DNA from: Kangiella shandongensis
GTDB taxonomy: Bacteria > Pseudomonadota > Gammaproteobacteria > Enterobacterales > Kangiellaceae
Assembly: GCF_020005365.1 (NCBI RefSeq)
Contig: NZ_JACNML010000009.1
Span: 1-64,000 of the forward strand
Reading direction: 5' to 3'
DNA length: 64,000 nt
Shown: positions 2 to 14,350 of the stretch, piece by piece
Layout: the number at the start of each line of letters is the position of its first letter
Numbering within the stretch: the stretch's first letter is position 1
Notes under the pieces: generated by a model
The model's input: the letters and a program-made list of their open reading frames with translations, nothing else
Database searches by the model: none
Told to the model about the DNA's origin: nothing
Position numbers and translations under genes: made by a program

Positions 2-883
2 CTCGCAGCATCTCGTTTAAACTCCGGACTGAATGACCGACGTTGTCTTCTTCTTACCATTGAACACCTCTTTGTTAAGGGTAATACTACCACTTAAAAG
101 AGTGTTCGGGTTTAGTCTGCCACTACAGTTTCTTCCAGCCAAACAAGTGAAGCAAACTTTTATAAGGAAATCCTGAATTACCTCAACTTCAACAACAATA
201 GACGAAATCATAGAGGGTCAGTTGCAAATAACAGAGCTCGAATCGCTGATTTTCTTTCGGCGAGAGCACAAGAAGTAGGGGAGTCACGTGTAATGCTATT
301 TATTGATGAAGCTGAAAATCTGTCCCACAATCAACTTAGTTGGCTAATCTCCATTCAGAATCAGATTAAACATAATCACGTCAAATTGATGACCATTCTA
401 GTAGGAACAAATGAGCTTAAGGATAAAAAGGAGTCTTTAAAGAAACTAGGCCAAAGGCAAATTACTAGGAGATTTATGACTATGGAGTATAGATTTCCGG
501 GGCTTTCAGTTCCGAGTGATATCAATAGCTTGTTGTCAGCAATCGATAATACAAAAATAAAGATCAACAATAAGGAACAAAGCTTGGTTTCATATTTTAT
601 TCCGGCTGCAACAAAGGGCTCCTTTAAAATAAGAGAATACTCAAAGGAAGTATATGAATTATTAATAGGTAGCATTAATCACGATTCCTATAACCATGGA
701 AACCAAAGATTAATTAAAGAACTGCCTATGGAACAGGTAATGGGCTATATTATACATTTACTTGATGTAGCATCAGAAAACGATAATACAAACCTTACGC
801 TTTCTAAAGAACTGCTATCCGACTGCTTAGTCCCACCAATATCGCACGCCATCAACGAGTTTGTGTTTTCTATTAATACTTAA
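2..883 (+). pseudogene. Decayed TniB/TnsC-like transposition ATPase
   Basis: TniB/TnsC AAA+ ATPases regulate DDE transposases of the Tn5053/Tn7 type. One frame runs from the window edge to 883 but is broken by TAA at 95-97 and TAG at 113-115. At 80-103 it reads GNTTT-stop-KS, a P-loop (GxxxxGKS) whose second glycine codon is now a stop. After the stops the frame continues with family-like residues and a clear Walker B (LFIDEAEN, 296-319), then an IxRRFM segment typical of the C-terminal half. Only 293-883 (196 aa) stays open from an ATG. It cannot make a working ATPase because the P-loop is lost. No transposase or TniQ gene is visible; the 5' end is outside the window. The region is AT-rich compared with the genes that follow. 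Family assignment is from motif pattern and memory. Confidence 0.6.
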
Positions 884-939
884 AAGAATTTATCTTTCTT
901 TTCTGGTAACTTCTAACTCTGTAGACAGTCGGATGAATA

Positions 940-990
940 CAACTATTTTTCTATAAAAAATGCGCAATACAAGTATTTATCTATAAAATA
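940..990 (+). repeat. Right-facing pair of end-type repeats
   Basis: Two 21-bp copies at 940-960 and 970-990 share CAA(C/G)TATTT(T/A)TCTATAAAA and differ at only three positions. Both are preceded by ATA. They are inverted relative to the three copies at 1005-1065, so the pair and the triple face each other across a short centre near 991-1004. Confidence 0.6.
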
Positions 991-1004
991 AGTGCATTTG
1001 CATA

Positions 1005-1065
1005 TTTTTTAGAAAAGTGGTTGTTTTTTAGAAAAGTACTTGCAGGATTTTCGGAGAAGTACTTG
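1005..1065 (-). repeat. Three left-facing end-type repeats
   Basis: TTTTTTAGAAAAGTGGTTG (1005-1023) and TTTTTTAGAAAAGTACTTG (1024-1042) abut directly. A third, TTTTCGGAGAAGTACTTG, is at 1048-1065, 8 bp from the proposed tip at 1073. Tandem or near-tandem ~20-bp sites next to a TGT/ACA tip are characteristic of TnsB/TniA-bound transposon ends; the binding role is inferred. Confidence 0.6.
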
Positions 1066-1177
1066 TCTGTACATTTACTTAAAAAGATTAAAGTAATTTT
1101 GTTAAACACCCATATGTCTCTGTGGCCATTACTTTGGCTCAACAATTAATTTAACATAATATAAGTTATGCGAATAT

Positions 1178-1405
1178 GTGAATGTAAAGTGTCAAACGTT
1201 ATCAGGTGAACGTAATTACGAGAAAAGTGATAAAAAGAAACATCGCACAGAGCGTTTTTATGGGCATTTCTCCAGAAGCTTTTCTTTGCCGGATAATGTT
1301 GATGAAAAGTCAATTAAAGCCGAGCATAAGAACGGTATGCTTTACCTGCATTTGATGAAGGCACCACAAGAAATAACTAAGTCTGTTGATATTAATATTT
1401 CTTAG
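1178..1405 (+). pseudogene. 5'-truncated small heat-shock protein (Hsp20)
   Basis: Hsp20 chaperones bind unfolded proteins through an alpha-crystallin domain. This fragment keeps only the C-terminal two-thirds of that domain: TLSGERNYE, RTERFYGHFSRSFSLPDN, then an AEHKNGMLYLHL strand (about 75 residues; intact Hsp20 is roughly 140-150). Upstream in frame there is a stop at 1157-1159, no N-terminal arm, no first beta strands and no clear ribosome site, only a GTG at 1178. It lies about 100 bp from the mobile-element end at 1073, so loss of the 5' half may date from that insertion or a later deletion. A terminator follows at 1421. Confidence 0.7.
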
Positions 1406-1829: not shown

Positions 1830-1843
1830 TTGACTTACATCAA
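1830..1843. promoter_or_regulatory. FNR/ANR-type site TTGAC-TTAC-ATCAA
   Basis: The site matches nine of ten positions of TTGAT-N4-ATCAA. Its centre at 1836.5 is about 40 bp upstream of a start point implied by TATACC (1865-1870), near the -41.5 spacing of a class II activator site for the 1923 gene. It is one of three such sites in the 1.4-14.4 kb island. Confidence 0.5.
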
Positions 1844-1922
1844 CATTTGCAACCTATTCTATGTTATACCTATAGATATCATATTGTTATCCATATCATT
1901 TCAAATTAAAGGAGATGAGGTT

Positions 1923-2213
1923 ATGAGTAATGATAAACAGAAAAAAGAAGCTGAAGAGCTTTTTGAATATATCAAAGGACAACGCGATGATCTCAGAGTA
2001 CAGGCGCATTTGGCGAAGTTAGAGTTAAAAGATAAATGGAAAGAAACCGAGGATAAATGGCACCATTTTGCTGCCAAGTTTCACTCTCTAAGTCGAGGTA
2101 CTGACAAGGCGACCGATGATGTTGCCGAGGGTTTTAAACACCTTGGTGAAGAACTCAAACACGCTTATAATGACTTAAAGCAAAGCGTTAAGTCTAAAGA
2201 CTCAACCGATTGA
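1923..2213 (+). CDS. Small highly charged helical protein, unknown function
   Basis: The 96-residue product is almost entirely Lys/Glu/Asp-rich with heptad-like spacing and no Gly/Pro breaks in the first half, so a soluble coiled coil is likely. It has no signal peptide. The ATG at 1923 is preceded by AAAGGAGATGAGG; an upstream in-frame start near 1830 would run through the FNR-type site and is not credible. It is the first gene of a run with the AMP-phosphorylase-like, PRPP-synthetase and P-ATPase genes (34 bp to the next start). I do not recognise a family. Small charged helical proteins in stress islands are often chaperone- or membrane-associated, but that is only suggestive. Confidence 0.75.
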   Translation: MSNDKQKKEAEELFEYIKGQRDDLRVQAHLAKLELKDKWKETEDKWHHFAAKFHSLSRGTDKATDDVAEGFKHLGEELKHAYNDLKQSVKSKDSTD

Positions 2214-2247
2214 TATATAACAATTAATTTAATTTCAGGAAAGTGCC

Positions 2248-3762
2248 ATGGAGCAGCCTGAGACCACCCTGCCCTTAGCCCATCGTCTGGGCATAGACAC
2301 AGGACATGAGCCTGTGATTTTCCTCCGTAGGGAATCACCGGTAGCTCGTTCCGAGGGCTTCGAGTCTATGTCTCGTATAGCCGTCGAGGTTAATGACAAA
2401 CGAATCTTGGCGACTTTAATGATCGTTTATAGCGACTTATTAGAGCCCGGTCATGCCGGATTATCGGAAAAAGCATGGCGTGCATTAAAAGTTAAGCCTG
2501 GTGAGCGATTAAAACTCAGCCATGCCCCTCCAATCAGCTCCCTTTCCTATATCCGTGCCAAAGCATTTGGCCATAAGCTGAACCGTAAACAGTTTCATAG
2601 CATTATTAAGGATATTGTCGACGGCTATTATATGAATGTGCATCTGGCGGCTTTTATTACTGCCTGTGCTAACAGTAATCTCAATGCCGATGAAATTATT
2701 TATCTGACCGAAGCGATGGTTAATACGGGGCAAAAGCTCGAATGGGAGGCCGAGACGGTTATAGACAAACACTGTATCGGCGGGTTACCAGGGAATCGCA
2801 CCTCCCCTATCATTGTCGCAATTCTGGCGGCTAATGGCCTAACAATCCCCAAAACTTCGTCAAGAGCCATCACATCACCCGCTGGCACCGCTGACGTGAT
2901 GGAAACCATGACTAACGTCGACTTTACGTTCGAGTCGCTTAAAAAAATTGTCAAAGAGACTGGAGGCTGTTTAGCGTGGGGAGGTTCTGTCAGCTTAAGC
3001 CCCGCCGACGATATTTTGATCACTGTTGAAAAAGCGTTAGATATCGACTTTGAGGGACAGTTAATCGCTTCTATTCTGTCAAAGAAAATTGCAGCTGGTT
3101 CACAACAAGTTCTGATTGACATCCCCGTTGGTAAAACAGCCAAGGTAAGAAGTCGTGCCGCTGCGGAAGCTCTATCAAAACAACTCATCTATACTGGAAG
3201 CCAGCTCGGTATTAAAGTTAATGTCGTTCTCACCGACGGTTCTCAACCTGTCGGCAATGGTATCGGGCCCGCATTAGAAGCTCAGGACGTGTTAGCGGTA
3301 TTAAAAAATGATAGCCATGCCCCCGCTGATCTGCGAGAAAGAGCCGTCACGCTTTCTGCAAAACTTTTAGAGTTGACAGAAAAGTCTCCCCCCGGACAAG
3401 GATACAAGTTATCCTTAGACACACTGACTTCTGGCTTGGCCTGGGATAAGTTCAGACAAATCTGTGAATTACAGGGCGGGTTCACTGAACCCAAAACTTC
3501 GTGCTGTACCTACACTATTACAACACCTCGCCGTGTGCTTGTGGAAGAGTTTGATAACCGGCAACTGGCACGGTTAGCGAAGCTTGCTGGAGCGCCAGCG
3601 GATAAAACCGCAGGAGTATTTTTACATGCAAAGGTCGGTGATACAGTCAGTGAGGATGGTGCTTTAATGACAATTCACGCCGAAGCTCCCGGAGAACTGG
3701 ATTACGCCATAAACTTCTATAAAGATAACATGAGCATGCTGAAGCTTAAGGAGCTCAAATGA
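2248..3762 (+). CDS. AMP phosphorylase-like (thymidine phosphorylase family)
   Basis: At 504 aa this is longer than DeoA (about 440), with an extra N-terminal domain (residues 1-85) as in archaeal AMP phosphorylases. A helical domain follows (about 92-155), then the phosphate/nucleoside-binding core with KHCIGG near 174 and IPKTSSRAITSPAGTAD near 200-216, and the pyrimidine-phosphorylase C-terminal domain (about 415-500). The SSRAITSPAGTAD signature matches AMP phosphorylases better than DeoA. The expected reaction is AMP (or another NMP) plus phosphate giving base plus ribose 1,5-bisphosphate. Its stop overlaps the start of the PRPP-synthetase gene by 4 nt, implying translational coupling. 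No RuBisCO or ribose-1,5-bisphosphate isomerase gene is in this window, so the fate of the product is unclear. Confidence 0.8.
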   Translation: MEQPETTLPLAHRLGIDTGHEPVIFLRRESPVARSEGFESMSRIAVEVNDKRILATLMIVYSDLLEPGHAGLSEKAWRALKVKPGERLKLSHAPPISSLSYIRAKAFGHKLNRKQFHSIIKDIVDGYYMNVHLAAFITACANSNLNADEIIYLTEAMVNTGQKLEWEAETVIDKHCIGGLPGNRTSPIIVAILAANGLTIPKTSSRAITSPAGTADVMETMTNVDFTFESLKKIVKETGGCLAWGGSVSLSPADDILITVEKALDIDFEGQLIASILSKKIAAGSQQVLIDIPVGKTAKVRSRAAAEALSKQLIYTGSQLGIKVNVVLTDGSQPVGNGIGPALEAQDVLAVLKNDSHAPADLRERAVTLSAKLLELTEKSPPGQGYKLSLDTLTSGLAWDKFRQICELQGGFTEPKTSCCTYTITTPRRVLVEEFDNRQLARLAKLAGAPADKTAGVFLHAKVGDTVSEDGALMTIHAEAPGELDYAINFYKDNMSMLKLKELK

Positions 3763-4670
3763 AGCCGATACTTTTTGATTTATCCTATAATCTAAACTTA
3801 TCAGCTCAGGTGAGACAAAAGCTTGACGCTGAACTGGGTTCGCTTACGCTCCGTAATTTTCCAGATGGTGAGTCGAGTATCAAGGTCATGGAAGACTGCG
3901 AGGACCGCGAGGTGATTGTTATGGCGGACCTGTCCCACCCCAATGAAAAAGTACTTCCGCTCTTATTACTGACACGAATACTCCGGGAGCGAAAAGCAAA
4001 AGAAATCAATTTAATTGCCCCCTACCTCCCATACATGCGACAGGATGCGCAGTTTACATCCGGCGAGTCGCAACTGGCCAGGCATTTTGCAGAGCTGCTG
4101 TCTGCTCATTTTGATAAAGTGATTACGGTAGAACCCCATCTACACCGTATTCTTCGGCTGGATACTATTTTTTCGATACCGACAGAAACGGTGCATAGCA
4201 CGATTCCAATCGCCGAGTGGGTCAAAAATCATGTGAAAAACCCTCTATTTATTGGGCCTGACATGGAAAGTTCACAATGGGTCTCGCCTCTTGCCAGACA
4301 GTTACAACAACCCTTTTTAGTCGCCGAGAAAAGTCGTAAAGGCGATCAGGATGTCAGTATCATAATCAAAGGATTAGATCACTGTCAGGGACATACCCCA
4401 GTGGTCATCGACGACATCATTTCGACAGGTTATACCATGGTGGGTATTGGTCAACGACTGAAAGACGAAGGCTTTAATGAAAGCATCTGTATCGCCACTC
4501 ACGCCATTTTCTCCGGTGATGCTTATATGCGTTTATCAAAGAATTATTTCGATAAAGTTATCACAACCAATACAGTCCCACATATTTCTAACCAAATTGA
4601 TGTTTCCGAAGAAATATATCGGGGTTATGCCGCCTGTGGTACAGACAAGCAATATGGCGCAGGTTTATGA
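3759..4670 (+). CDS. Divergent ribose-phosphate diphosphokinase (PRPP synthetase)
   Basis: PRPP synthetase transfers the ATP diphosphate to ribose 5-phosphate; run backwards it makes ATP from PRPP and AMP. This 303-aa protein keeps the fold landmarks: FPDGE near 28, LPYMRQD near 93 (canonical FPYARQD), the GPD segment, and a PRPP loop VVIDDIISTGYT near 214. The loop and the short length differ from the housekeeping Prs, so this looks like a paralog closer to class II/III or archaeal forms. It overlaps its neighbours by 4 nt on both sides (ATGA), tying it to the AMP-phosphorylase-like enzyme and the P-ATPase. A role in handling ribose phosphates released from NMPs is inferred. The housekeeping prs would be elsewhere. 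Confidence 0.82.
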   Translation: MKPILFDLSYNLNLSAQVRQKLDAELGSLTLRNFPDGESSIKVMEDCEDREVIVMADLSHPNEKVLPLLLLTRILRERKAKEINLIAPYLPYMRQDAQFTSGESQLARHFAELLSAHFDKVITVEPHLHRILRLDTIFSIPTETVHSTIPIAEWVKNHVKNPLFIGPDMESSQWVSPLARQLQQPFLVAEKSRKGDQDVSIIIKGLDHCQGHTPVVIDDIISTGYTMVGIGQRLKDEGFNESICIATHAIFSGDAYMRLSKNYFDKVITTNTVPHISNQIDVSEEIYRGYAACGTDKQYGAGL

Positions 4671-7318
4671 ATGCAGGGACCCAGATAGACTCAATCAAAA
4701 AGCTTGCAACACTGAGTAATGAAAAATTACTCAGTACGCTGGGCTCTGATGTGTCACAAGGCCTGAATGATCACGATATAGAGCAAAGGCAAGCACAATA
4801 CGGTGCCAATAGCGTTATAAAATATCACCGCACTTCCCTATTGCGCATCATTTTAAATCAGTTTACCAACCCTATCGCCTGGTTATTGCTGGTAGCGGTA
4901 CTTATTTCTCTTGTTTTCCAAGACTATCTAGAAATGTACGCGATTTTGGCTGTGTTATTTATCAATGCGGCCATTGGGGCTATTACCGAGCTGAAAGCGC
5001 TTGATTCGATGGAAGCATTAAGGAGCATGAGCGAAGCTCAGGCACTTGTTTTACGGCAGGGAAAGCGGATCACCATAAACTCATCCGAGTTAGTTCCTGG
5101 TGATATTGTTTTGTTAGCCGCCGGAGATCTGGTAACCGCAGATATGTGTTTACTCGAGTCAAATAAATTACAGGTCGATGAGTCTGCATTAACCGGTGAG
5201 TCGTTGCCCATTTCTAAGAATAACACCCCCACACATTATATCGAAGACATACAAAATCCCAGGCTATTATATAAAGGTACAGCTGTGCTGAGAGGTACTG
5301 GTGTCGCTGTCGTTGCCAATACTGGCGCTCATACCGAACTGGGAAGGATCAGCATACTGATTGCAGAAGCGACGCCGGAGCGCTCGCCGCTGGAGAATAG
5401 AATTCAGCATTTAAGCGGACAGCTGATCAAGCTAACGCTGGGCCTGATCCTTGCCATTACTATTTTAGGACTGATTAAAGCAGAATCTTATCTTGAGCTC
5501 ATTAAAACCAGTATCGCGCTAGCTGTTGCAGCGATCCCCGAAGGGATGCTTATTGTAACAACATTGGTGCTGGCACGTTCGATGCTAAAGCTCGCTAAGA
5601 AGAATGTGCTGATCGAAAGGTTATCAGCCATTGAGACGCTGGGCTCAACGACCCTGATCATGACTGATAAGACCGGAACCTTAACTGAAAACAAAATGTT
5701 AGTCACCGAACTGTTAACGAACCTAACTGAAAGAGCCCACCTGAATGAGTTACAACAACCCATAGATCCAGCGGTAGCTTCCCTGGTTGACGTTGCAGTG
5801 CTTTGCAACAATACCAACCGGGATGAGTTAAAAGGCGATCCTATCGAGATTGCCTTAATAAAAATGGCACAGCAAATTGCTCCGGAACAGCTACAGAAAC
5901 TGAATCAGTATGAGAAAGTTGCGGAGCAACCCTTTGATCCAGATGTCCGGTACATGATTACCTGCCATTCACTACCTTCTTCGTCGCAATTTCAAGTATC
6001 AATCAAGGGAGCTCCCGAGAGCATTATTGAGCATTGTCATTATTACCTTGATGGCTCTAACAAGGTCGCATTAAGCCCAGACCTGAAAAGCCAGTGGCTA
6101 AGCAGTATAAATCAGATGGCAGAGTCGGGGTTAAGGGTTCTGGCGTTAGCTTATCGTGTGAGTGATACCTCTTCAGTAGCGGTGGATGGCAACTTCTGCC
6201 TTATCGGTATCGTCGGTATGGAAGATCCTTTACGAGAAACCGTGCCAGAGGCTATTCAGCAGTGTCACGATGCGGGTATCCGAATTGTCATGGTGACCGG
6301 AGACAACGGGTTAACCGCCAGTAAAATTGCCAAAAAAATCAACCTCGGGGAACAAGGTGACAATACGACACTAACGGGCGTTGAGCTCGAGGAAATCGTA
6401 AAACATCAGTCGAAAGAAAGCGATGAAAAGCTGTATCAGGTCGATATCTTCTCGCGCGTTAGTCCTAAACAAAAATATGATCTGGCCGAATTCTATCAGG
6501 AAAGAGAGCACATCGTGGCAATGACAGGTGACGGGGTCAATGATGGGCCTGCCCTTAAGAATGCAGACATTGGTATAGCCATGGGTATTCGAGGCACTGA
6601 AGTCGCCAAACAGGCTGCGGATATGGTGCTGCTGGATGATTCCTTCCCTGCTATAGCAGAGGCGGTTTCCCAGGGCCGTACCGTTTTCAACAATATCAGG
6701 AAGTTTGTCCTCTATTTGCTATCGTGTAATTTAAGCGAAATTTTGGTGGTTTCTTTAGCGGTCCTGTCCGGTTTTCCGATCCCGCTACTGCCACTACAAA
6801 TCCTCTTCTTAAACCTGGTCACAGATGTCTTTCCCGCCCTGGCTTTAGGAACCTGCAAAGGTGAAGAAGATGTGATGAAACAACCGCCTCGTGATCCTGC
6901 AGAGACTATTATTGAGAAAGAACACTGGTTACAGATAGTCACCTACGCCGTGCTATTGTCCATCATCGTCTTTTCAGCTTTCCTGGTAGATTTATATTAT
7001 TTTGAGTCGTCTTCGGATCACGCTGTGACGATAGCCTTCCTCACGCTGGCTATCTCGCAACTGTTACACGTTTTTAATATGCGCGAGGAGAAAAAAAGAG
7101 TTTGGAAGAATGAGATTACTCGAAACCTCTATATCTGGATTGCCCTTGCGATATGCTCCCTTCTCTTATTGTTTGCCGTGCATATTCCTCTGCTTTCTAA
7201 GGTTTTGAATATCGTGCCTATGGGCTGGAGCTCCTGGCTTCTGGTCTTCGGCTTTAGTTTCCTAACCGTTCCGTTGTTTAATATCATCCACCTTTGGCCG
7301 ATTATTCGACGACGTTAG
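4667..7318 (+). CDS. Cation-transporting P-type ATPase, Ca2+/SERCA-like (P2)
   Basis: This 883-aa inner-membrane pump has the N-terminal cation ATPase domain, an actuator loop with LTGESLP (about 178), the membrane motif AAIPEGM (about 291), the phosphorylation motif DKTGTLT (about 334), a KGAPE nucleotide-binding motif, the TGDGVNDGPAL hinge (about 620), and four to six C-terminal helices. PEGM rather than CPC/CPH separates it from heavy-metal pumps and suggests Ca2+, Mn2+ or monovalent cations. The start overlaps the PRPP-synthetase stop by 4 nt. Its 3' end overlaps the convergent dehydrogenase gene by 17 bp with no terminator between them. Its place in a nucleotide-salvage unit is unexplained. 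Confidence 0.88.
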   Translation: MNAGTQIDSIKKLATLSNEKLLSTLGSDVSQGLNDHDIEQRQAQYGANSVIKYHRTSLLRIILNQFTNPIAWLLLVAVLISLVFQDYLEMYAILAVLFINAAIGAITELKALDSMEALRSMSEAQALVLRQGKRITINSSELVPGDIVLLAAGDLVTADMCLLESNKLQVDESALTGESLPISKNNTPTHYIEDIQNPRLLYKGTAVLRGTGVAVVANTGAHTELGRISILIAEATPERSPLENRIQHLSGQLIKLTLGLILAITILGLIKAESYLELIKTSIALAVAAIPEGMLIVTTLVLARSMLKLAKKNVLIERLSAIETLGSTTLIMTDKTGTLTENKMLVTELLTNLTERAHLNELQQPIDPAVASLVDVAVLCNNTNRDELKGDPIEIALIKMAQQIAPEQLQKLNQYEKVAEQPFDPDVRYMITCHSLPSSSQFQVSIKGAPESIIEHCHYYLDGSNKVALSPDLKSQWLSSINQMAESGLRVLALAYRVSDTSSVAVDGNFCLIGIVGMEDPLRETVPEAIQQCHDAGIRIVMVTGDNGLTASKIAKKINLGEQGDNTTLTGVELEEIVKHQSKESDEKLYQVDIFSRVSPKQKYDLAEFYQEREHIVAMTGDGVNDGPALKNADIGIAMGIRGTEVAKQAADMVLLDDSFPAIAEAVSQGRTVFNNIRKFVLYLLSCNLSEILVVSLAVLSGFPIPLLPLQILFLNLVTDVFPALALGTCKGEEDVMKQPPRDPAETIIEKEHWLQIVTYAVLLSIIVFSAFLVDLYYFESSSDHAVTIAFLTLAISQLLHVFNMREEKKRVWKNEITRNLYIWIALAICSLLLLFAVHIPLLSKVLNIVPMGWSSWLLVFGFSFLTVPLFNIIHLWPIIRRR

Positions 7319-8291
7319 GAGCCTTATCACCAAATTTATTAAAGTTCTGAACATTTAGCAGGGTTGTATAGGCGATATTATCGATGGAATCGTTGGTATA
7401 AAATGCAATATGAGGTGTGATAACCACATTATCCATCTGCTTGAAACGATTGAACATGGCATCATCTACTGACTTAGCATGATCCTTAAAGAACAGGTTC
7501 TTTTCGTATTCATAAACGTCCAAACCAGCATAACGCACCTTGTTTGTATCGAGAGCATCGATTAGATCTGTGGTTCGAATCACAGGCCCACGAGCGGTAT
7601 TGATAATCGTAACCCCTTGCTTCATCTTTTCAATAGTTTCTTTATTAATCAAGTGGTTAGTTGTTTCATTTAAAGGACAGTGTAAACTAATGACATCCGC
7701 TTGTTGCCATATTTCATTTAAGCTAACCCATTCTAGCAACTCGGGTTTAGATTCGCTAACAGCTGGATCATAACCAATCACCCGGCAGCCGAAACCTTTC
7801 ATGATCGATGCATAGGCGCTGCCAATATCCCCTACTCCTATAACGCCTATGGTTTTATCGTAGACACTTTCTCCCAGATTTCCATTGAGCGCGAATTGAC
7901 TATTGATTAGCCGTTTTTGTAATAAAAACATTTTCCGATATAAGCATAGCAGTAATGTTACAGCGTGTTCGGCAACTGACTGAGGTGAATAGCCTGGTAC
8001 GTTCATAACCGTCATCCCCAGTTCTTTTGCTGCAGTGATATCGACATGATCATATCCCGTCGAGCGTAACAGTATCAGTTTTACTCCTTGCGCTCGAATA
8101 AACGATAAGAGAGCTTTATCTAACGGGTTATTAGCAAAAATACTGATCGCAGAGGCTGACGCCAGTTGTGAAACATGTTCCTCTGTTAATGCGCTATCAA
8201 CAAACGACAGCTCAAAATTAAAAGACTCTTTATTCTTTTGTCGGTAGATCGGCTTCTCAAAATCCTGCACACCAAACAGAACGAGCTTCAT
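7302..8291 (-). CDS. ldhA: D-lactate dehydrogenase-type D-2-hydroxyacid dehydrogenase
   Basis: This 329-aa cytoplasmic NAD-dependent enzyme interconverts a 2-keto acid and a D-2-hydroxyacid, most likely pyruvate and D-lactate. It has the Rossmann motif GVGDIG (about 150) with an aspartate-type end (GYDP), the catalytic Arg in NTARGP (about 233), Glu in DVYE (about 257) and His in TPHIAF (about 290). LdhA regenerates NAD+ in fermentation, which fits the perfect FNR-type site 90 bp upstream. It is divergent from the Na/Pi symporter gene and converges on the P-ATPase with a 17-bp overlap. Exact keto-acid specificity cannot be read from sequence. Confidence 0.82.
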   Translation of the reverse strand: MKLVLFGVQDFEKPIYRQKNKESFNFELSFVDSALTEEHVSQLASASAISIFANNPLDKALLSFIRAQGVKLILLRSTGYDHVDITAAKELGMTVMNVPGYSPQSVAEHAVTLLLCLYRKMFLLQKRLINSQFALNGNLGESVYDKTIGVIGVGDIGSAYASIMKGFGCRVIGYDPAVSESKPELLEWVSLNEIWQQADVISLHCPLNETTNHLINKETIEKMKQGVTIINTARGPVIRTTDLIDALDTNKVRYAGLDVYEYEKNLFFKDHAKSVDDAMFNRFKQMDNVVITPHIAFYTNDSIDNIAYTTLLNVQNFNKFGDKAPNVVE

Positions 8292-8380
8292 GACAACACT
8301 TCCTTATATGCTTACTGAGATGATCTTCTGTTTAGTGTTATTGAACAACCCGTAAAAGGCAATGCTTATCCGAGCAATCA

Positions 8381-8394
8381 TTGATACCGATCAA
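8381..8394. promoter_or_regulatory. Perfect FNR/ANR-type site TTGAT-ACCG-ATCAA
   Basis: All ten consensus positions match. It lies between the divergent ldhA-like and Na/Pi symporter genes. Its centre (8387.5) is 41.5 bp from the start point implied by a GATAGT element at 8417-8422, the class II activator spacing, for the rightward symporter gene. A leftward promoter for the dehydrogenase is less clear. Confidence 0.65.
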
Positions 8395-8463
8395 AAAACA
8401 GACAGCAAAATAAAACGATAGTGTTATATTATTAGATAAGGAAAACAGAGGGTATTCCTATTA

Positions 8464-10059
8464 ATGCTTAACTTGGACTGGCTCCTATTACTTTCTGGTG
8501 TTGGGATATTTCTTTGGGGAATGTCCATGGTTGAAGCTAGTCTGACAAAACTCGCCTCTGGAAAGCTGCACTACTATATCGGAACCTGGACCAATACTAC
8601 TCTGTCCGCGGTAATCACTGGAGCGCTGTGCACAGCATTAATCCAAAGTAGTTCCTTATTAACTCTTATCGTACTCGCCCTGGCGAGTTCGAAACTGCTG
8701 AACCTGAAACAGGCTGTTGGCGTTATTTTTGGCGCCAATTTAGGTACCACAGCTACAGGCTGGCTGGTTACCTTACTGGGATTTAAGATCAGTCTCGGTG
8801 ATATAGCCATTTATATTATCGGCGTATCGGCCTTAGCTCGCTTATTTTTCAGAAACAGAAGCCAATATGGCCTGACGCTTTCTTTAATTATTAGCATTGG
8901 TTTAATTCTATTCAGTCTGGACTTAATTAAAAACTCAACTTTAGGTCTCAGCGAAACGATTGATATCAATGCAAGCGGTACGGCTGTACCTTTTGCCTTT
9001 TTTATAACAGGTATCGCTTTGGCAACCCTGTTCCAATCAAGCTCGGCAGTCATGATTATGACGTTAAGCGCCGCCAACGCCGGGCTCATTAATCTGGAAA
9101 GTGCTATTTCGGTCGTGATTGGCGCTGATCTGGGTACAACCAGTACCGCAGCACTGGGCAGCATCAATGGCGCAAAGATTAAAAAACAACTCGCGCTTAC
9201 TCACTTCAGTTTTAATTTTGTTATTGCTTTTATTGGTTTATTTGTGCTGTTACCTCAGGTTAATAACGTTTTAGACTGGCTCAACTGGCATGATCCGCTA
9301 CTGCCTATCGTTACGTTCCATAGCCTGAATAACGCCCTGGGTACCCTTCTATTCTCTCTATCGATAAAACCATTTGTTGCATTTGTATCCAAAAGGTTCG
9401 GTGAGCAGCGTAATACTATCGAATCTCGCTTTTCATTAATTCCTTTAGATGCCCCGGCGGTCGCATTAAAACAGCTCAGCGATGAAGGGAAACATTTTCT
9501 TCTTGCAGTGGCCAAGTTTAATCAGCGCGGCTTAAAACAAAACCGTAACTATGCCAGCGAGTATTTGCAGTTAAAGAAAACCGAAGGCGTTTTTATTGAT
9601 ACCTGTCAGAAGCTATCGAAGCAGGTGATTAATGATCAGCAAACTAATGATATTTACAGCCTGCTATCAGCCATAAGAGACGGAACCTACTCGGCTAAGG
9701 CGTTAAAAGATATAGCGCCGGACTTAGAGGTTATGGACATACAAAACCAACTAAATAAAACCAATATTGTTCCACTCTTTACATTAACCAAAGCATTTTA
9801 TGATGAGCAACAGGTTCATCTCGGCATTAACGCTGACGACAGCTCACAGGATATGCAGGAAACGGCAGAAGAGTTTTATCATACATTCAGGTCGACTCAG
9901 GAAACCCTCTTCAGCTCGGAGGTGTCACAAGATTTGCCAATTGAACAAGTTTCAACCTTGTTGAACATTAATAAACAGCTATATACGTCATCTAAATACT
10001 TTATTAGTGCACTAAATAGTATTAACCTTGTTGTTAAGGAGAGTTCTCATGAAAATTAA
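8464..10059 (+). CDS. Na+/phosphate symporter family protein with PhoU-like tail
   Basis: The 531-aa protein has two inverted membrane repeats, each with the QSSS substrate motif (about 60 and 190), typical of the NptA/YjbB Na/Pi family (PF02690). After about residue 350 it continues as a soluble, mostly helical PhoU-like domain. It would import phosphate with Na+, or export it as proposed for YjbB. Phosphorolysis by the nearby AMP-phosphorylase-like enzyme consumes Pi, so a supply role is attractive but inferred. It starts 70 bp after the FNR-type site, and its last 11 bp overlap the beta-CASP gene. Confidence 0.85.
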   Translation: MLNLDWLLLLSGVGIFLWGMSMVEASLTKLASGKLHYYIGTWTNTTLSAVITGALCTALIQSSSLLTLIVLALASSKLLNLKQAVGVIFGANLGTTATGWLVTLLGFKISLGDIAIYIIGVSALARLFFRNRSQYGLTLSLIISIGLILFSLDLIKNSTLGLSETIDINASGTAVPFAFFITGIALATLFQSSSAVMIMTLSAANAGLINLESAISVVIGADLGTTSTAALGSINGAKIKKQLALTHFSFNFVIAFIGLFVLLPQVNNVLDWLNWHDPLLPIVTFHSLNNALGTLLFSLSIKPFVAFVSKRFGEQRNTIESRFSLIPLDAPAVALKQLSDEGKHFLLAVAKFNQRGLKQNRNYASEYLQLKKTEGVFIDTCQKLSKQVINDQQTNDIYSLLSAIRDGTYSAKALKDIAPDLEVMDIQNQLNKTNIVPLFTLTKAFYDEQQVHLGINADDSSQDMQETAEEFYHTFRSTQETLFSSEVSQDLPIEQVSTLLNINKQLYTSSKYFISALNSINLVVKESSHEN

Positions 10060-11437
10060 CATCCATGGGGCTGCGGAAGAAGTTACAGGCTCATGTTCAG
10101 AAATATCAGTCGGCCATAACAAGTTTTTGGTTGACTGTGGGTTAATTCAAGGCTCTTGGAAACATGAAAAAAGGAATGCCGAACCGTTCCCTTTTGAGCC
10201 CGCCGATATTGATGCCTTAATTTTGACCCACGCCCATATCGATCACAGCGGTCGTCTACCTTTGCTTGTTAAATCAGGTTTTTCAGGACCAATCTACTGT
10301 CATAAGGCTAATCGAGAGTTACTTGAAATTCTATTATTGGATAGCGCTTATCTACAAGAAAAAGAAGCCGAATGGAATAACCGAAAACGATTGCGCAAAG
10401 GCTTACCCGAAATAGAGCCACTTTATACTCGCGCTGATGTGCCAGCAGTTTTAGAGCAACTACATTTAGTCGAATACAAAGAAAAGCTCCAGCTGTCGAA
10501 GGATACGGCATTCCGCTTAAGAAATGCCGGGCATATATTAGGCTCTTCCCATTTAGAGTTTTATGCGAATGAACAAGGCAAAGAAAAAACGGTCGTCTTT
10601 AGTGGTGATATCGGCAACCCTGGCGCTCCAATCCAGCAGGATCCAGACATTGATGGTCAGCCGGATCTGGTCATTATGGAGTCAACCTACGGCAATCGTA
10701 ACCATATCTCGTGGGAAGAGTCGGAACAAGAATTGAAAGAGTCTATCGAACATGCTGCCCGAGACGGCGGTAATGTGCTGATACCGGCCTTCGCTGTAGG
10801 GCGTACGCAGACCATACTTCACTACTTTGCAAAGTACTTCCGCGAGTGGCACCTGGATCAGTGGGATATCTTCCTTGATAGTCCTATGGCCATAAAGGTA
10901 ACCGAAGCTTATGAAGGCTACAGCTATCTCTATAAAGAAACAACACAACCCTTCTGGTCAAAAGGAGCATTATGCCGTCATATCCCAAATCTGCATTTTA
11001 CCGCAGATACCAACGAGTCGATGGCTCTTAACTCGATAAAGAGTGGCGCCATTATCATTGCCGGAAGTGGCATGATGACGGGTGGGCGAATAAAACACCA
11101 CATGAAACATAACTTATGGCGCAGCCAGTGCGACTTAATCATTACAGGTTTCCAGCCGGAAGGAACGGTAGGAAGAAGAATTGTTGATGGCTCCCCTTTT
11201 ATTAAGCTTTGGGGAGAATCTATCCGAGTCGCCGCATCCGTTCACACTATAGGAGGGCTCTCAGCACACGCCGGTCAACGTGATCTGCTTCACTGGTATC
11301 AAAAATTCAGTAACAGCCCGCCAGTTATTTTGAACCATGGTTCAGCATCGACCATAGAAGAATTTAAAGATTTTTTACAACAGCATACATCCGGCGATAT
11401 AACTATTGCGAAAAAAGGCCAAACATTCAACTTATGA
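10049..11437 (+). CDS. MBL-fold beta-CASP RNA-processing-type hydrolase
   Basis: This is a 462-aa metallo-beta-lactamase protein with the zinc motif THAHIDHSG (about 60), a GHILGS motif near 165, a beta-CASP insert and a C-terminal RMMBL region (GSGMMTGGR, HTIGGLSAHA), as in bacterial and archaeal CPSF-73-like ribonucleases. The likely role is Zn-dependent RNA cleavage in the cytoplasm. The start chosen is the ATG at 10049, preceded by AAGGAGAG at 10036; a start 21 bp upstream lacks a ribosome site. It overlaps the symporter gene by 11 bp, so the two are co-translated. Relatives of this type recur in stress islands; its RNA target is unknown. Confidence 0.85.
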   Translation: MKINIHGAAEEVTGSCSEISVGHNKFLVDCGLIQGSWKHEKRNAEPFPFEPADIDALILTHAHIDHSGRLPLLVKSGFSGPIYCHKANRELLEILLLDSAYLQEKEAEWNNRKRLRKGLPEIEPLYTRADVPAVLEQLHLVEYKEKLQLSKDTAFRLRNAGHILGSSHLEFYANEQGKEKTVVFSGDIGNPGAPIQQDPDIDGQPDLVIMESTYGNRNHISWEESEQELKESIEHAARDGGNVLIPAFAVGRTQTILHYFAKYFREWHLDQWDIFLDSPMAIKVTEAYEGYSYLYKETTQPFWSKGALCRHIPNLHFTADTNESMALNSIKSGAIIIAGSGMMTGGRIKHHMKHNLWRSQCDLIITGFQPEGTVGRRIVDGSPFIKLWGESIRVAASVHTIGGLSAHAGQRDLLHWYQKFSNSPPVILNHGSASTIEEFKDFLQQHTSGDITIAKKGQTFNL

Positions 11438-11557
11438 CGCCGGTGTTATGACTTTTCGGCCTAACCGTATGGTTCCATTGATCTTTTATCATGGCATATC
11501 ACGGCTATATTATTTACAATCCACGGCTTTTTTATAGCCTGAGTTCGAGCGCTTGAT

Positions 11558-11571
11558 TTGATTTACATCTC
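11558..11571. promoter_or_regulatory. Weaker FNR/CRP-type site TTGAT-TTAC-ATCTC
   Basis: The left half-site is perfect and the right half is degenerate (eight of ten). It lies 47 bp before the porin ATG at 11618. A TATAGT at 11580-11585 is too close for class II spacing, so activation or repression cannot be decided. It shares the TTAC spacer with the 1830 site. Confidence 0.35.
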
Positions 11572-11617
11572 TCGCTCGGTATAGTGGTAACTGAAAATAG
11601 GAGTTGAGGGATTTTAT

Positions 11618-12724
11618 ATGTGTAACAATTGGACGAAAATATCTCTGGCAGTATTGTGTGGTTTACTTGCTGCTCCAACGACCTCGTTTGCAGAAGAGGA
11701 TGAAACCGATATCAAGCTAGGCGGCGCCGTTCGCCTAAACTATGGCTGGAAAGATTATACAGATGATAGCGACGGTCAGTTTGACTTTGAGCTATTTGCT
11801 GTAGACGTTGACATCACTAAAGGTAAGTGGTTCGTTGACTCACAGTTTCGTTTTTATCAGTCTTTTAATGCCGTGCATCACGCTGAAGTTGGCTATAATT
11901 TTGATGAGTCGGATCGTGTTGCAGTCGGCGTATCTCAAGTACCTTTCGGCATCAGCCCCTACTCTTCCCATGGCTTCTGGTTCGGCGGAACTTATTACCT
12001 GGGGTTTGAGGATGACTACGATACCGGTGCGAAGTGGACACATAAAGCCGGCGACTGGACTTTCGACACGGCTTACTTTTTCAACAGCGAATACGACGAT
12101 TCGGCCCGTTATGGCAGATATTCGTTTGACGTTGCCAGTATAGATGGTCGAGACAACAAAGAAGACGGCCATGCTAACTTTAGAGCGCAATATCAGTGGG
12201 GCGACCATGTAATAGGCGCTTCGGTTCAGGGCGGCAAATTCCGCAACCGTACCACTGGTGAAAAAGGCGAGCATGCAGCTGCCGCTGTTCATTTTGATGG
12301 GCGCTATGATACCTGGAACATTCAACTACAGCATATCTATTATTACTTTGAAGATGCACCAGAACTTCAAACAGCAGACAACAGAATTGCGATGTCAGCA
12401 TTCGATTTCCCGTTTGAAATTGCTGCTGAAGCAAATGTCACAAGTTTCAATGTTGCAAAAACCTTCAAGGTTGGTAATGAGTTCGTAGATAAGGTGGTTT
12501 GCTACAATGACTTTACTTATACAGCAACTAAAAATGAGCCCGGTCTAACGGACTCAATCCAGAATGTTACTGGTTGTACCTTAATTAAAAATGGACTCTA
12601 TACTTACATTGACTGGATTGCCGGTAAAAATATGTGGTTTGCGGGCGGCCCAGGTATTGGCGTCTATAATGGACCAGAAAAGTGGCGTTCACGCTTGAAT
12701 ATTAATATTGGCTATTACTTTTAA
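11618..12724 (+). CDS. Outer-membrane beta-barrel porin
   Basis: The 368-aa precursor has a Sec signal peptide (about 1-26, cut after TSFA). The mature part is rich in alternating aromatic/polar strands and ends in Phe (IGYYF), the usual C-terminal assembly signal of outer-membrane barrels. A GAGGG lies upstream of the ATG. The BCCT carrier gene starts 15 bp after its stop, so the pair probably brings one solute across both membranes: outer-membrane entry here, Na+-coupled uptake next. Which porin family it belongs to is unclear. A single Cys pair near residues 290-320 could form a disulfide. Confidence 0.8.
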   Translation: MCNNWTKISLAVLCGLLAAPTTSFAEEDETDIKLGGAVRLNYGWKDYTDDSDGQFDFELFAVDVDITKGKWFVDSQFRFYQSFNAVHHAEVGYNFDESDRVAVGVSQVPFGISPYSSHGFWFGGTYYLGFEDDYDTGAKWTHKAGDWTFDTAYFFNSEYDDSARYGRYSFDVASIDGRDNKEDGHANFRAQYQWGDHVIGASVQGGKFRNRTTGEKGEHAAAAVHFDGRYDTWNIQLQHIYYYFEDAPELQTADNRIAMSAFDFPFEIAAEANVTSFNVAKTFKVGNEFVDKVVCYNDFTYTATKNEPGLTDSIQNVTGCTLIKNGLYTYIDWIAGKNMWFAGGPGIGVYNGPEKWRSRLNINIGYYF

Positions 12725-12739
12725 TCTAAAGGGGGATAC

Positions 12740-14350
12740 ATGAGTGACTCTGATAAAGAGCATAATGAAACACAAAATCCACTCCATGAAAAATATGATA
12801 CAGAACACGAAATAGGCGAAGATAACGTCGAATTGCTGGGTATGGATTTACATAACCCAGTATTTTTCACCTCCTCTTTTTTCGTTATTTTCTTTGTCAT
12901 TTTAACGTTAATATTCCCGAAGGAATCGAGTGATTATTACGAGGCAGCAAAAGACTGGTCAATAGCAAACTTTGACTGGTTATTTATGATAAGCGGCAAT
13001 GTTTTTGTTCTATTCTGCTTATTTTTACTTGTTTCTCCTTACGGAAAAATACGAATCGGTGGCAAAGACGCCAAACCCGACTTCAGTATCCTTTCATGGT
13101 TTGCCATGCTGTTTGCTGCAGGCATGGGAATTGGCTTGATGTTCTGGAGCGTGGCAGAGCCTGTCGGTTACTTTACTGACTGGGCAGGAACACCGTTTAA
13201 TGTCCCACCACTAACCGAAGAAGGTAGGGATTTAGCCATGGGAGCGACCATGTTTCACTGGGGGCTACACCCATGGGCTATCTATGCGGTCGTCGCTTTG
13301 TCGCTCGCATTTTTTGCTTATAACTGTAATTTACCTCTAACCATACGCTCAAGCTTCTACCCTTTGTTTGGAGAGCGCGTTTGGGGAGTAACAGGCAATA
13401 TTATCGATACCGTAGCTGTTTTAGCGACCATCTTTGGTTTAGCAACTTCACTGGGTTTCGGTGCCCAGCAAGCGGCTTCCGGTTTGCACTTCTTATTCGA
13501 TGTGCCGAATACCATTACTACCCAGCTGGCGATCATCTTCGGTGTTACGATGGTGGCAATCTTTTCGGTCGTTCGAGGCCTTGAAGGCGGCGTTAAAATT
13601 CTCAGTAACATCAATATGTCGCTTGCTGGGATTCTAATGATTTTCGTTATTATTGCTGGCTCAACCACCCTGATACTTAACGGTATTGGTAGTACGCTAG
13701 TAACTTATGTCGAACACATTATACCGCTCAGTAACTGGGTTGGACGTGAAGATACAGACTTTTATAGTGGCTGGACGATTTTCTATTGGGCCTGGTGGAT
13801 TTCCTGGTCGCCTTTTGTCGGCATGTTTATCGCCCGTGTTTCAAAAGGACGTACCGTCAGACAGTTCATTGGCGCAGTTCTGGTTATCCCAACGCTACTA
13901 ACAGTCGTTTGGATGTCAACCTTTGGTACCATGGGTTTAGAGCAGGTTCAGAATGGCATTGGTGAGTTAGCCAATGGTATTACTGACAAATCCCTTGCCC
14001 TATTCCAGATGCTGGAGAACTTGCCACTAGGCTTTGTTACCTCCTTTATCGCCATTGTGTTAGTTCTGGTCTTTTTCATCACCTCTTCTGACTCCGGCTC
14101 TCTGGTCATCGACAGTATTACCGCCGGTGGTAAGATTGATGCACCAGTAACACAACGTGTATTCTGGGCAGTGATGGAAGGTGTTATTGCCGCAGTTCTA
14201 CTATATGGAGGTGGAGAGCAAGCCTTAGGTGCGTTACAGGCAGCAGCCATTACTGTAGGGCTACCCTTCTCACTTGTCCTATTGCTGATGTGTGTCAGCT
14301 TATTCCTGGGACTTAGAGCAGCCTACAATTTGAACTACAAAAATAAATAA
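12740..14350 (+). CDS. BCCT-family betaine/choline/carnitine transporter
   Basis: This 536-aa inner-membrane protein has about 12 helices and the BCCT signature GWTIFYWAWWISW (about 345), followed by SPFVGMFIARVSKGRT, plus the glycine-rich AAGMGIGLMFW in helix 3. The N-terminal 45 residues are acidic and soluble. It should import a quaternary ammonium compound (glycine betaine, choline, carnitine) or a relative using Na+ or H+. It is coupled to the upstream porin gene and ends in a bidirectional terminator. No choline-to-betaine oxidation genes are nearby, so osmoprotectant uptake is more likely than catabolism. Confidence 0.88.
   Translation: MSDSDKEHNETQNPLHEKYDTEHEIGEDNVELLGMDLHNPVFFTSSFFVIFFVILTLIFPKESSDYYEAAKDWSIANFDWLFMISGNVFVLFCLFLLVSPYGKIRIGGKDAKPDFSILSWFAMLFAAGMGIGLMFWSVAEPVGYFTDWAGTPFNVPPLTEEGRDLAMGATMFHWGLHPWAIYAVVALSLAFFAYNCNLPLTIRSSFYPLFGERVWGVTGNIIDTVAVLATIFGLATSLGFGAQQAASGLHFLFDVPNTITTQLAIIFGVTMVAIFSVVRGLEGGVKILSNINMSLAGILMIFVIIAGSTTLILNGIGSTLVTYVEHIIPLSNWVGREDTDFYSGWTIFYWAWWISWSPFVGMFIARVSKGRTVRQFIGAVLVIPTLLTVVWMSTFGTMGLEQVQNGIGELANGITDKSLALFQMLENLPLGFVTSFIAIVLVLVFFITSSDSGSLVIDSITAGGKIDAPVTQRVFWAVMEGVIAAVLLYGGGEQALGALQAAAITVGLPFSLVLLLMCVSLFLGLRAAYNLNYKNK

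Follow-up and report, generated by a model that had tools for sequence, protein, structure and literature searches.

In a 64,000-nucleotide stretch of the Kangiella shandongensis genome (positions 1-64,000 of the forward strand of contig NZ_JACNML010000009.1, assembly GCF_020005365.1; hereafter "the window"), an archaeal-type AMP-phosphorylase-like gene (AMPp) and a gene for a relative of phosphoribosyl-pyrophosphate (PRPP) synthetase (PRS) belong to a candidate low-oxygen unit that spans about positions 1830-11437. Although far from certain, it is on balance probable that this unit represents a horizontally transferred module under FNR/FixK-type control, which recovers ribose phosphate from RNA or nucleoside monophosphates (NMPs) and, in some relatives, feeds it into fermentation. 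An earlier note on this DNA had proposed a low-oxygen survival island built on NMP phosphorolysis; that reading was broadly right and is partly supported by the analyses below.

AMPp and PRS in the candidate low-oxygen unit

Seven genes within 1830-11437 were sorted into three units: a small-protein gene, AMPp, PRS and a type II P-type ATPase gene (unit 1), a single D-2-hydroxyacid dehydrogenase gene convergent to the first unit (unit 2), and a Na/Pi symporter-like gene with a beta-CASP nuclease gene (unit 3). Features of the region are:

1830-1843, + strand: FNR-type box TTGACTTACATCAA, one mismatch; TATACC (1865-1870) begins 21 nucleotides after the box
1923-2213, + strand: small protein of 96 amino acids, first gene after this box; relatives precede AMPp in five congener loci (51-64% identity)
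2248-3762, + strand: AMPp, AMP-phosphorylase-like, archaeal type with N-terminal domain (TIGR02645, PRK04350, AlphaFold2 model)
3759-4670, + strand: PRS, PRPP-synthetase-like, 4-nucleotide overlap with AMPp (PRK07199, AlphaFold2 fold)
4667-7318, + strand: type II P-type cation ATPase, 4-nucleotide overlap with PRS (Pfam)
7302-8291, - strand: D-2-hydroxyacid (D-lactate-type) dehydrogenase, convergent with the pump gene (PF02826, PF00389)
8381-8394, + strand: perfect FNR-type box TTGATACCGATCAA, located between the genes for the dehydrogenase and the Na/Pi symporter-like protein
8464-10059, + strand: Na/Pi symporter-like protein (PF02690)
10049-11437, + strand: beta-CASP metallo-nuclease, CPSF-like (PF10996, PF07521)
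11618-14350, + strand: porin-like gene and BCCT transporter gene (PF02028), backbone; in synteny with SSADH and argS also where congeners lack AMPp (L188-L191)

AMPp scored above the cut-offs of TIGR02645 (599.8 versus 434.6 bits) and PRK04350 (661.2 versus 434 bits). Its AlphaFold2 model (pLDDT 91.6) most closely matched AMP phosphorylase 4ga5 in the PDB (TMq 0.89, TMt 0.91, 499 columns including the N-terminal domain); nucleoside phosphorylases gave TM values of 0.66-0.74, which are partly lower because these proteins are without the N-terminal domain. Matches to TIGR02645 occurred in 3 of 14 control genomes, all three of them archaea, and searches of viral contigs with the window AMPp as query yielded no relative. 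According to an excerpt of PMC8376864, archaeal AMP phosphorylase forms ribose-1,5-bisphosphate (R15P) from all natural NMPs. Coupling of AMPp, PRS and the pump gene by 4-nucleotide overlaps, as described in the earlier note, was confirmed at 3759-3762 and 4667-4670, within an operon at 2248-7318.

PRS exceeded the PRK07199 cut-off (342.4 versus 322 bits) and its AlphaFold2 model (pLDDT 91.0) showed a PRPP-synthetase fold (TMq 0.87 against 3mbi). With 15 relatives aligned, K191, R193, D218-D219 and H127 were found to be retained and the segments PHLHR and GPDxESxQW to be invariant. The counterparts of these segments in human PRPS2 are DLHASQ and SPDAGGAKR, and Methanocaldococcus jannaschii has APDKGALEF for the latter. 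PRS thus carries GPDxESxQW instead of the canonical SPDxGGxxR-type segment, which is presumably located at the phosphate site, and this suggests a phosphate site that is changed relative to canonical PRPP synthetase. Score, fold and altered segments together bear out the earlier description of PRS as a divergent PRPP synthetase. A canonical PRPP synthetase is also encoded in the window genome.

Among the R15P users that were looked for, PRS is probably the candidate in the window genome, because neither R15P isomerase (no TIGR00511 match at E <= 0.001) nor a PhnN above its cut-off was found. The best PhnN match, rejected at 56.3 bits versus a cut-off of 156, is presumably a guanylate kinase. 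A bolder proposal is that PRS acts as an R15P-using phosphotransferase (R15P + AMP -> ribose-5-phosphate (R5P) + ADP, the PRPP-synthetase reaction minus one phosphate and reversed), so that RNA phosphorolysis would directly yield high-energy phosphate; together with phosphoketolase and acetate kinase downstream, the module would then let bacteria deprived of oxygen ferment the RNA they contain to ATP, acetate and lactate, through a pathway that is both complete and mobile. We regard this proposal as clearly unlikely.

Recurrence, mobility and fermentation genes

Co-occurrence of the gene set in other genomes, which had been set beforehand as a test of the earlier reading, was found: AMPp and PRS, in many cases accompanied by beta-CASP, turned up again in contigs whose titles name several phyla; many of these contigs are from metagenome-assembled genomes (MAGs). 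AMPp was detected in 9 of 40 family-sample genomes, in 76 of 369 genomes of the same class (Gammaproteobacteria) and in 114 plasmid records. Four congeners carried two AMPp copies 50-83 kb apart, with differing partners.

Since the profile panel was partly built from the 80 named loci described below, 20 matched AMPp loci, each with a control window from the same genome (one test window measuring 12.8 kb), provided the cleaner comparison. PRS was near AMPp in all 20 matched loci and in none of the 20 control windows, in which no marker exceeded its threshold. The matched loci also held beta-CASP (4), heavy-metal ATPase (4), type II ATPase (2), Hsp20 (1) and universal stress protein (1) genes. 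When the loci were grouped by score against one AMPp model, which is not a tree, five fell into the high-scoring group of the window and 15 into a low-scoring group, with beta-CASP in 4/5 and 0/15, respectively. Among the 29 best-scoring class loci besides the window, PRS was beside AMPp in 28 (the exception being L114), and beta-CASP was found in 11, within the few kb examined.

The named loci, the 80 best among at least 587, are biased to relatives of the window protein and include many MAGs; 56 of them have more than 20 kb of DNA. One (L035) is the exact reverse complement of L027 (contig G015:C188, from the same family as the window genome), and L027 was in the query alignment. In these loci, all high-scoring (676-833), PRS was detected in 67, beta-CASP in 51, heavy-metal ATPase in 26, type II ATPase in 14, phosphoketolase in 19 (13 divergent, 6 canonical), type II GAPDH in 11, D-hydroxyacid dehydrogenase in 10, acetate kinase in 8, universal stress protein in 7, Hsp20 and BCCT in 3 each and Na/Pi in 1. 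After grouping at 80% AMPp identity, the corresponding numbers for 65 groups were 53 (PRS), 42 (beta-CASP), 13 each for any phosphoketolase, type II ATPase and heavy-metal ATPase, 6 each for dehydrogenase and acetate kinase, and 5 (GAPDH). Based on longest reading frames, AMPp and PRS were close neighbours in 62 cases, 36 of them with an exact 4-nucleotide overlap, and beta-CASP and AMPp in 35 cases, 14 with a 4-nucleotide overlap. In 14 of the 80 loci, a protein that combines an ATP cone with an Mrr-nuclease domain (Pfam on L048), perhaps a nucleotide-sensing nuclease, is encoded upstream of beta-CASP/AMPp (L046, L048, L049, L058, L060, L063, L064, L068, L072, L078, L084, L090, L104 and L107).

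Nearly identical DNA of 18-21 kb (98.9-99.5% identity in comparisons of three loci to L097) is common to L097, L098, L102 and L109, loci that stem from a Burkholderiales bacterium, Hydrogenophaga, Achromobacter ruhlandii and Pseudomonas rhodesiae. The shared island contains AMPp, PRS, beta-CASP, type II GAPDH, hydroxyacid dehydrogenase and a divergent phosphoketolase. The heavy-metal P-type ATPases in 26/80 loci (13/65 groups) and the copper genes that surround several plasmid copies would also fit a passenger role, in which AMPp and copper or heavy-metal pumps are co-carried in metal-resistance islands without a joint function. However, AMPp, PRS and beta-CASP, in some loci together with AckA and XFP, form close or overlapping pairs, in none of the close pairs tallied is a heavy-metal ATPase the neighbour of AMPp, PRS or beta-CASP, and a same-named operon in Bradyrhizobium is under FixK2 control (PMC9104804, in part; see below). 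We consider a passenger role highly improbable.

Consistent with a module that supplies fermentation, genes for phosphoketolase (XFP) and acetate kinase (AckA) were found next to AMPp in the orders AMPp-AckA-XFP-PRS with beta-CASP upstream (L071, L074), AckA-XFP-AMPp-PRS (L054, L092) and AMPp-AckA-XFP (L062, L066), and in several operons overlapping reading frames join the fermentation genes to AMPp itself. In four congener loci (L016, L020, L023 and L026), AMPp-PRS-beta-CASP is followed by acetate kinase and phosphoketolase (Pfam on L016). Wherever acetate kinase occurred among the 80 loci, phosphoketolase was also present (8/8). The divergent phosphoketolases of L016 and L071 scored far below the NCBIfam phosphoketolase cut-offs. 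Fourteen divergent and six canonical phosphoketolases nevertheless agree at H67, H100, H145, H322, E478 and H551 (L080 numbering), which we take to be catalytic residues of phosphoketolase. Phosphoketolase was present in 4 of the 40 family-sample genomes, and in each of them it lies some 6-7 kb away from the start of an AMPp gene. Among Gammaproteobacteria, it was present in 38 of 76 genomes with AMPp and in 67 of 293 others (Fisher p 6e-6, uncorrected for ancestry).

Annotated plasmids of Acidovorax, Sphingobium, Pseudorhizobium and Criblamydia show AMPp in a fermentation context; that of Criblamydia encodes a P-type ATPase, phosphoketolase, GlgP, ATP cone, metallo-beta-lactamase-fold (MBL) protein, AMPp, PRS, acetate kinase and glucoamylase. 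Plasmids of Celeribacter, Methylophaga and Variovorax carry MBL, AMPp and PRS, with no phosphoketolase annotated in the stretch viewed and with acetate kinase in Methylophaga; a ninth plasmid region (Cupriavidus) carries no annotation. Two plasmid proteins annotated as "xylulose 5-phosphate 3-epimerase" (L194:20497-22917 and L200:8250-10637) resemble the divergent phosphoketolase in length and genomic position. GlgP accompanies AMPp and phosphoketolase in L200 and L201, the latter also with glucoamylase, a hint that phosphorolysis gives access to glycogen as well as to RNA. The earlier idea that RNase action would give NMPs, followed by phosphorolysis and a lactate-type dehydrogenase, fits the phosphoketolase, acetate kinase, GAPDH and dehydrogenase genes predicted near AMPp elsewhere.

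FNR-type boxes and proposed low-oxygen control

The window genome encodes an FNR protein (347.1 bits versus a cut-off of 228) and contains 18 perfect FNR boxes, including the one at 8381, compared with 2 matches to the reversed pattern. The box at 1830, which precedes the small-protein gene, is kept together with its 21-nucleotide spacing in five congener loci (L022, L019, L021, L024 and L025). The hexamer that follows is TATACC in the window, L022, L019 and L025, TATACA in L021 and TATATC in L024. For the 8381 box, a counterpart exists in L022, likewise 30 nucleotides from TATATT. An FNR protein and a conserved FNR-type box predicted ahead of the unit thus occur together in this genome. In the whole window, sites with at most one mismatch numbered 8 versus 4.0 expected, a count reached by 4 of 100 shuffles. 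The earlier note had placed FNR-type sites before three units; those at 1830 and 8381 stand, with congener counterparts, and the third, at 11558, was rejected as chance level, since it has two mismatches and the window holds 81 such-or-better sites versus 48.6 expected.

The motif TTGA-N6-TCAA was counted 11 times (in 9 loci) in the 161 regions that precede leading marker genes of the named loci, versus 0-4 times for nine other spacers, and FNR boxes with at most one mismatch were counted 11 times in these regions, versus 0-5 for eight control patterns. Poisson values calculated for the loci assume independence, which does not hold for related loci. In a Kangiellaceae MAG (L035/L027), beta-CASP-AMPp-dehydrogenase lies near genes for a Crp/FNR-like regulator and anaerobic ribonucleotide reductase-like proteins, as read from protein starts.

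Published data on Bradyrhizobium diazoefficiens, consulted in excerpts, describe an operon, bll3117-3116-3115, that resembles the window genes in encoding, in the same order, proteins annotated as thymidine phosphorylase family, ribose-phosphate pyrophosphokinase and MBL fold; the match is by gene name and order, not by sequence. At 0.5% O2, bll3115, bll3116 and bll3117 were raised at the protein level (log2 2.9, 4.4 and 2.1, respectively) and at the transcript level (15.4-, 7.7- and 5.1-fold), and so was phosphoketolase bll2518 (protein log2 4.3, transcript 8.2-fold) (PMC6515984). In a fixK2 mutant, bll3117 (-6.6), bll3115 (-30.6), phosphoketolase (-10.0) and acetate kinase (-10.2) were reduced; bll3116 has no separate row in these data, but lies inside the predicted operon (PMC9104804). 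A box is listed for both FixK2-dependent operons, bll3117-3116-3115 and bll2518-2517 (PMC9104804), and according to the excerpted part of PMC6515984, these genes are not among the direct FixK2 targets as defined earlier. The likeness to the window extends to low-oxygen control, in the window predicted, by a regulator of the FNR family. In contrast to the module proposed here, the genes appear in these sources as table rows without a proposed pathway, and the predicted bll3117 operon comprises those three genes only. The response to oxygen expected in the earlier note is thus supported by a same-named operon, induced at 0.5% O2 and FixK2-dependent in the parts of PMC6515984 and PMC9104804 consulted, and would extend to the window by gene name and order.

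The family of AMPp, the signs of low-oxygen control and the presence of an ATP-consuming pump in the same operon would also be consistent with adenylate control, in which AMP is removed during energy collapse to keep the adenylate kinase balance and energy charge, ribose recovery being a by-product. As this would leave unexplained the nuclease, phosphoketolase and acetate kinase genes in the same operons, we consider it improbable.

Proposed pathway, contrary evidence and accessory genes

RNA is a large sugar pool of a cell. In the proposed ribose-recovering module, falling oxygen would cause FNR to switch on the operon, as suggested by the conserved boxes and the FNR gene, with experimental data coming from the same-named FixK2-dependent operon elsewhere. 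The beta-CASP nuclease, together with other RNases, may then help to convert RNA to 5'-NMPs, from which AMPp, judged by family and fold, would form free base and R15P with inorganic phosphate (Pi). PRS, encoded in the same operon and the only candidate R15P user among those sought, would convert R15P to R5P or PRPP, and R5P would enter pentose-phosphate metabolism. In some relatives, phosphoketolase and acetate kinase from the same operon would yield acetyl phosphate and ATP from R5P, while GAPDH and D-hydroxyacid dehydrogenase would balance redox as in heterolactic fermentation.

Several observations weigh against this pathway. AMPp remained below the cut-off of the AMP-phosphorylase equivalog TIGR03327 (504.7 versus 535 bits), so that the earlier label of an AMP-phosphorylase-like enzyme holds for family (TIGR02645, PRK04350) and fold, but not at equivalog level. 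Phosphoketolase and acetate kinase were each found in 1 of the 20 matched loci (the expected phosphoketolase rate of 0.0027 per window is a rough estimate), and in only 4 (G043, G046, G307 and G406) of the 38 Gammaproteobacteria with both genes do AMPp and phosphoketolase lie within 20 kb. The window genome itself yielded no phosphoketolase (PF03894, none at E <= 1e-10) and no acetate kinase (PF00871, none at E <= 0.001); because of this, the downstream route in the window organism must differ from that in relatives with these enzymes. Whole 20-kb neighbourhoods showed no enrichment of FNR boxes (at most one mismatch: 22 in 20 test versus 25 in 20 control windows). Thirteen of the 80 loci had no PRS above threshold in the available DNA (in L094, PRS is cut by the contig end); since these include L062 and L066 with AMPp-AckA-XFP, PRS is not indispensable. 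Low-scoring AMPp loci mostly carried PRS alone (15/15 in the matched set, 11/14 among the best class loci), and the AMPp-PRS pair may for that reason have a more general role. The remaining 3 of 14 low-scoring class loci had a type II ATPase (L126, L127) or beta-CASP (L131) as partner; a clean split into a "low-oxygen" AMPp clade and a bare-pair clade was dropped in view of these partners, leaving a tendency only. Fifteen lower-scoring PRS-only pairs are L145-L154, L158-L160, L162 and L163.

The same constancy of the AMPp-PRS pair, the many lower-scoring loci that consist of the pair alone, and the retention by PRS of the PRPP-synthetase fold and of the invariant residues K191, R193, D218-D219 and H127 argue for nucleotide and base recycling rather than energy conservation. 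AMPp and PRS would then tune NMP, R15P and PRPP pools, and phosphoribosyltransferases would re-use free bases when growth stops. Fermentation genes that overlap the AMPp gene in several operons, joint FixK2 control of both operons in one species (PMC9104804, in part) and the canonical PRPP synthetase already present in the window genome argue against recycling, which we judge to be somewhat unlikely.

Besides the Bradyrhizobium operons, the proposed low-oxygen module shares features with three known systems. With the archaeal NMP shunt, or pentose bisphosphate pathway (AMP phosphorylase, R15P isomerase and form III Rubisco), it shares the archaeal-type full-length AMPp fold and, by family, the first step (NMP + Pi -> base + R15P). 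It differs in that R15P isomerase was not found in the window genome (TIGR00511); PRS, with phosphoketolase and acetate kinase in relatives, seems to replace isomerase and Rubisco, the latter of which was not searched for. Phosphoketolase, acetate kinase, GAPDH and D-hydroxyacid dehydrogenase near AMPp in relatives recall heterolactic pentose phosphoketolase fermentation, but the module would be fed by nucleotide phosphorolysis, phosphoketolase and acetate kinase were not found in the window genome, and 13 of the 19 phosphoketolases near AMPp are divergent. The lxa locus of Burkholderia cenocepacia is likewise a large low-oxygen island, with genes for MBL protein M0300, a phosphate acetyl/butyryl transferase, phosphofructokinase and a universal stress protein (PMC6127331, in part); it differs in that neither AMPp nor PRS is named in the main text of that paper.

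In the open-access full-text literature searched (subscription papers being mostly outside its scope), neither a bacterial AMPp-PRS-phosphoketolase module nor a dedicated bacterial route for fermenting RNA was found. The parts of the module are of known kinds; what these searches did not bring up is their combination, in which NMP phosphorolysis of archaeal type is joined by a remodelled relative of PRPP synthetase and, in part of the related loci, by phosphoketolase and acetate kinase, under FNR/FixK-type control and on mobile DNA. If correct, the proposal would help to explain how respiring bacteria survive without oxygen, would give a function to a set of genes that in many genomes bear the annotations "thymidine phosphorylase family", "ribose-phosphate pyrophosphokinase" and "MBL fold", and would connect a nucleotide pathway of archaeal type with the phosphoketolase fermentation of bacteria.

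For the remaining genes of the unit, family assignments were firmer than specific functions. The pump, previously read as a Ca2+-type pump, is a type II P-type ATPase, but its Ca2+ specificity was not established, as it missed every Ca-specific NCBIfam cut-off (best 577.6 versus 798.3 bits). Similarly, the putative D-lactate dehydrogenase of the earlier note belongs to the D-2-hydroxyacid dehydrogenase family; its best NCBIfam matches were D-lactate types, all below cut-off (PRK08605, 238 versus 356 bits), and it would fit a redox role. PF10996 and PF07521 corroborated the beta-CASP RNase-like label, with best NCBIfam matches, both below cut-off, to cas14_MBL_CASP (342.6 bits) and aCPSF1 (251.7 bits). 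The Na/Pi symporter annotation agreed with PF02690 and the gene is present in congener islands; with 1 occurrence in the 80 wider loci, it looks lineage-specific. The pump and the Na/Pi protein may help to keep ions and phosphate in balance. For the small protein, no family exceeded its cut-off in profile searches, leaving a "phasin-like" label unconfirmed.

The Na/Pi gene and the porin/BCCT pair are not general parts of the module. Eight congeners were queried for SSADH; four had none at E <= 1e-100, and the remaining four (G017, G019, G033 and G032), in which AMPp was also absent at E <= 1e-100, were compared with the window. In all four, porin-BCCT-SSADH-argS was unchanged, which ruled out the porin/BCCT pair as members of the unit, contrary to the earlier note, and set the borders at about 1830-11437. 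Because this neighbourhood is present in AMPp-free congeners, the unit appears to have been inserted beside it as an older arrangement. The porin-like protein had no match in Pfam or NCBIfam. Gene order in L022 (congener G021) matches that of the window: small protein, AMPp, PRS, ATPase, dehydrogenase, Na/Pi, beta-CASP and porin. At the left edge of the window (293-1405), one open reading frame gave a borderline match to AAA, and an Hsp20 gene is represented by its C-terminal part. The partial Hsp20, at 1202-1402, aligns to positions 36-101 of the HSP20 profile, and a full-length Hsp20 gene precedes the unit in congener G021 (L022:8291-8710).

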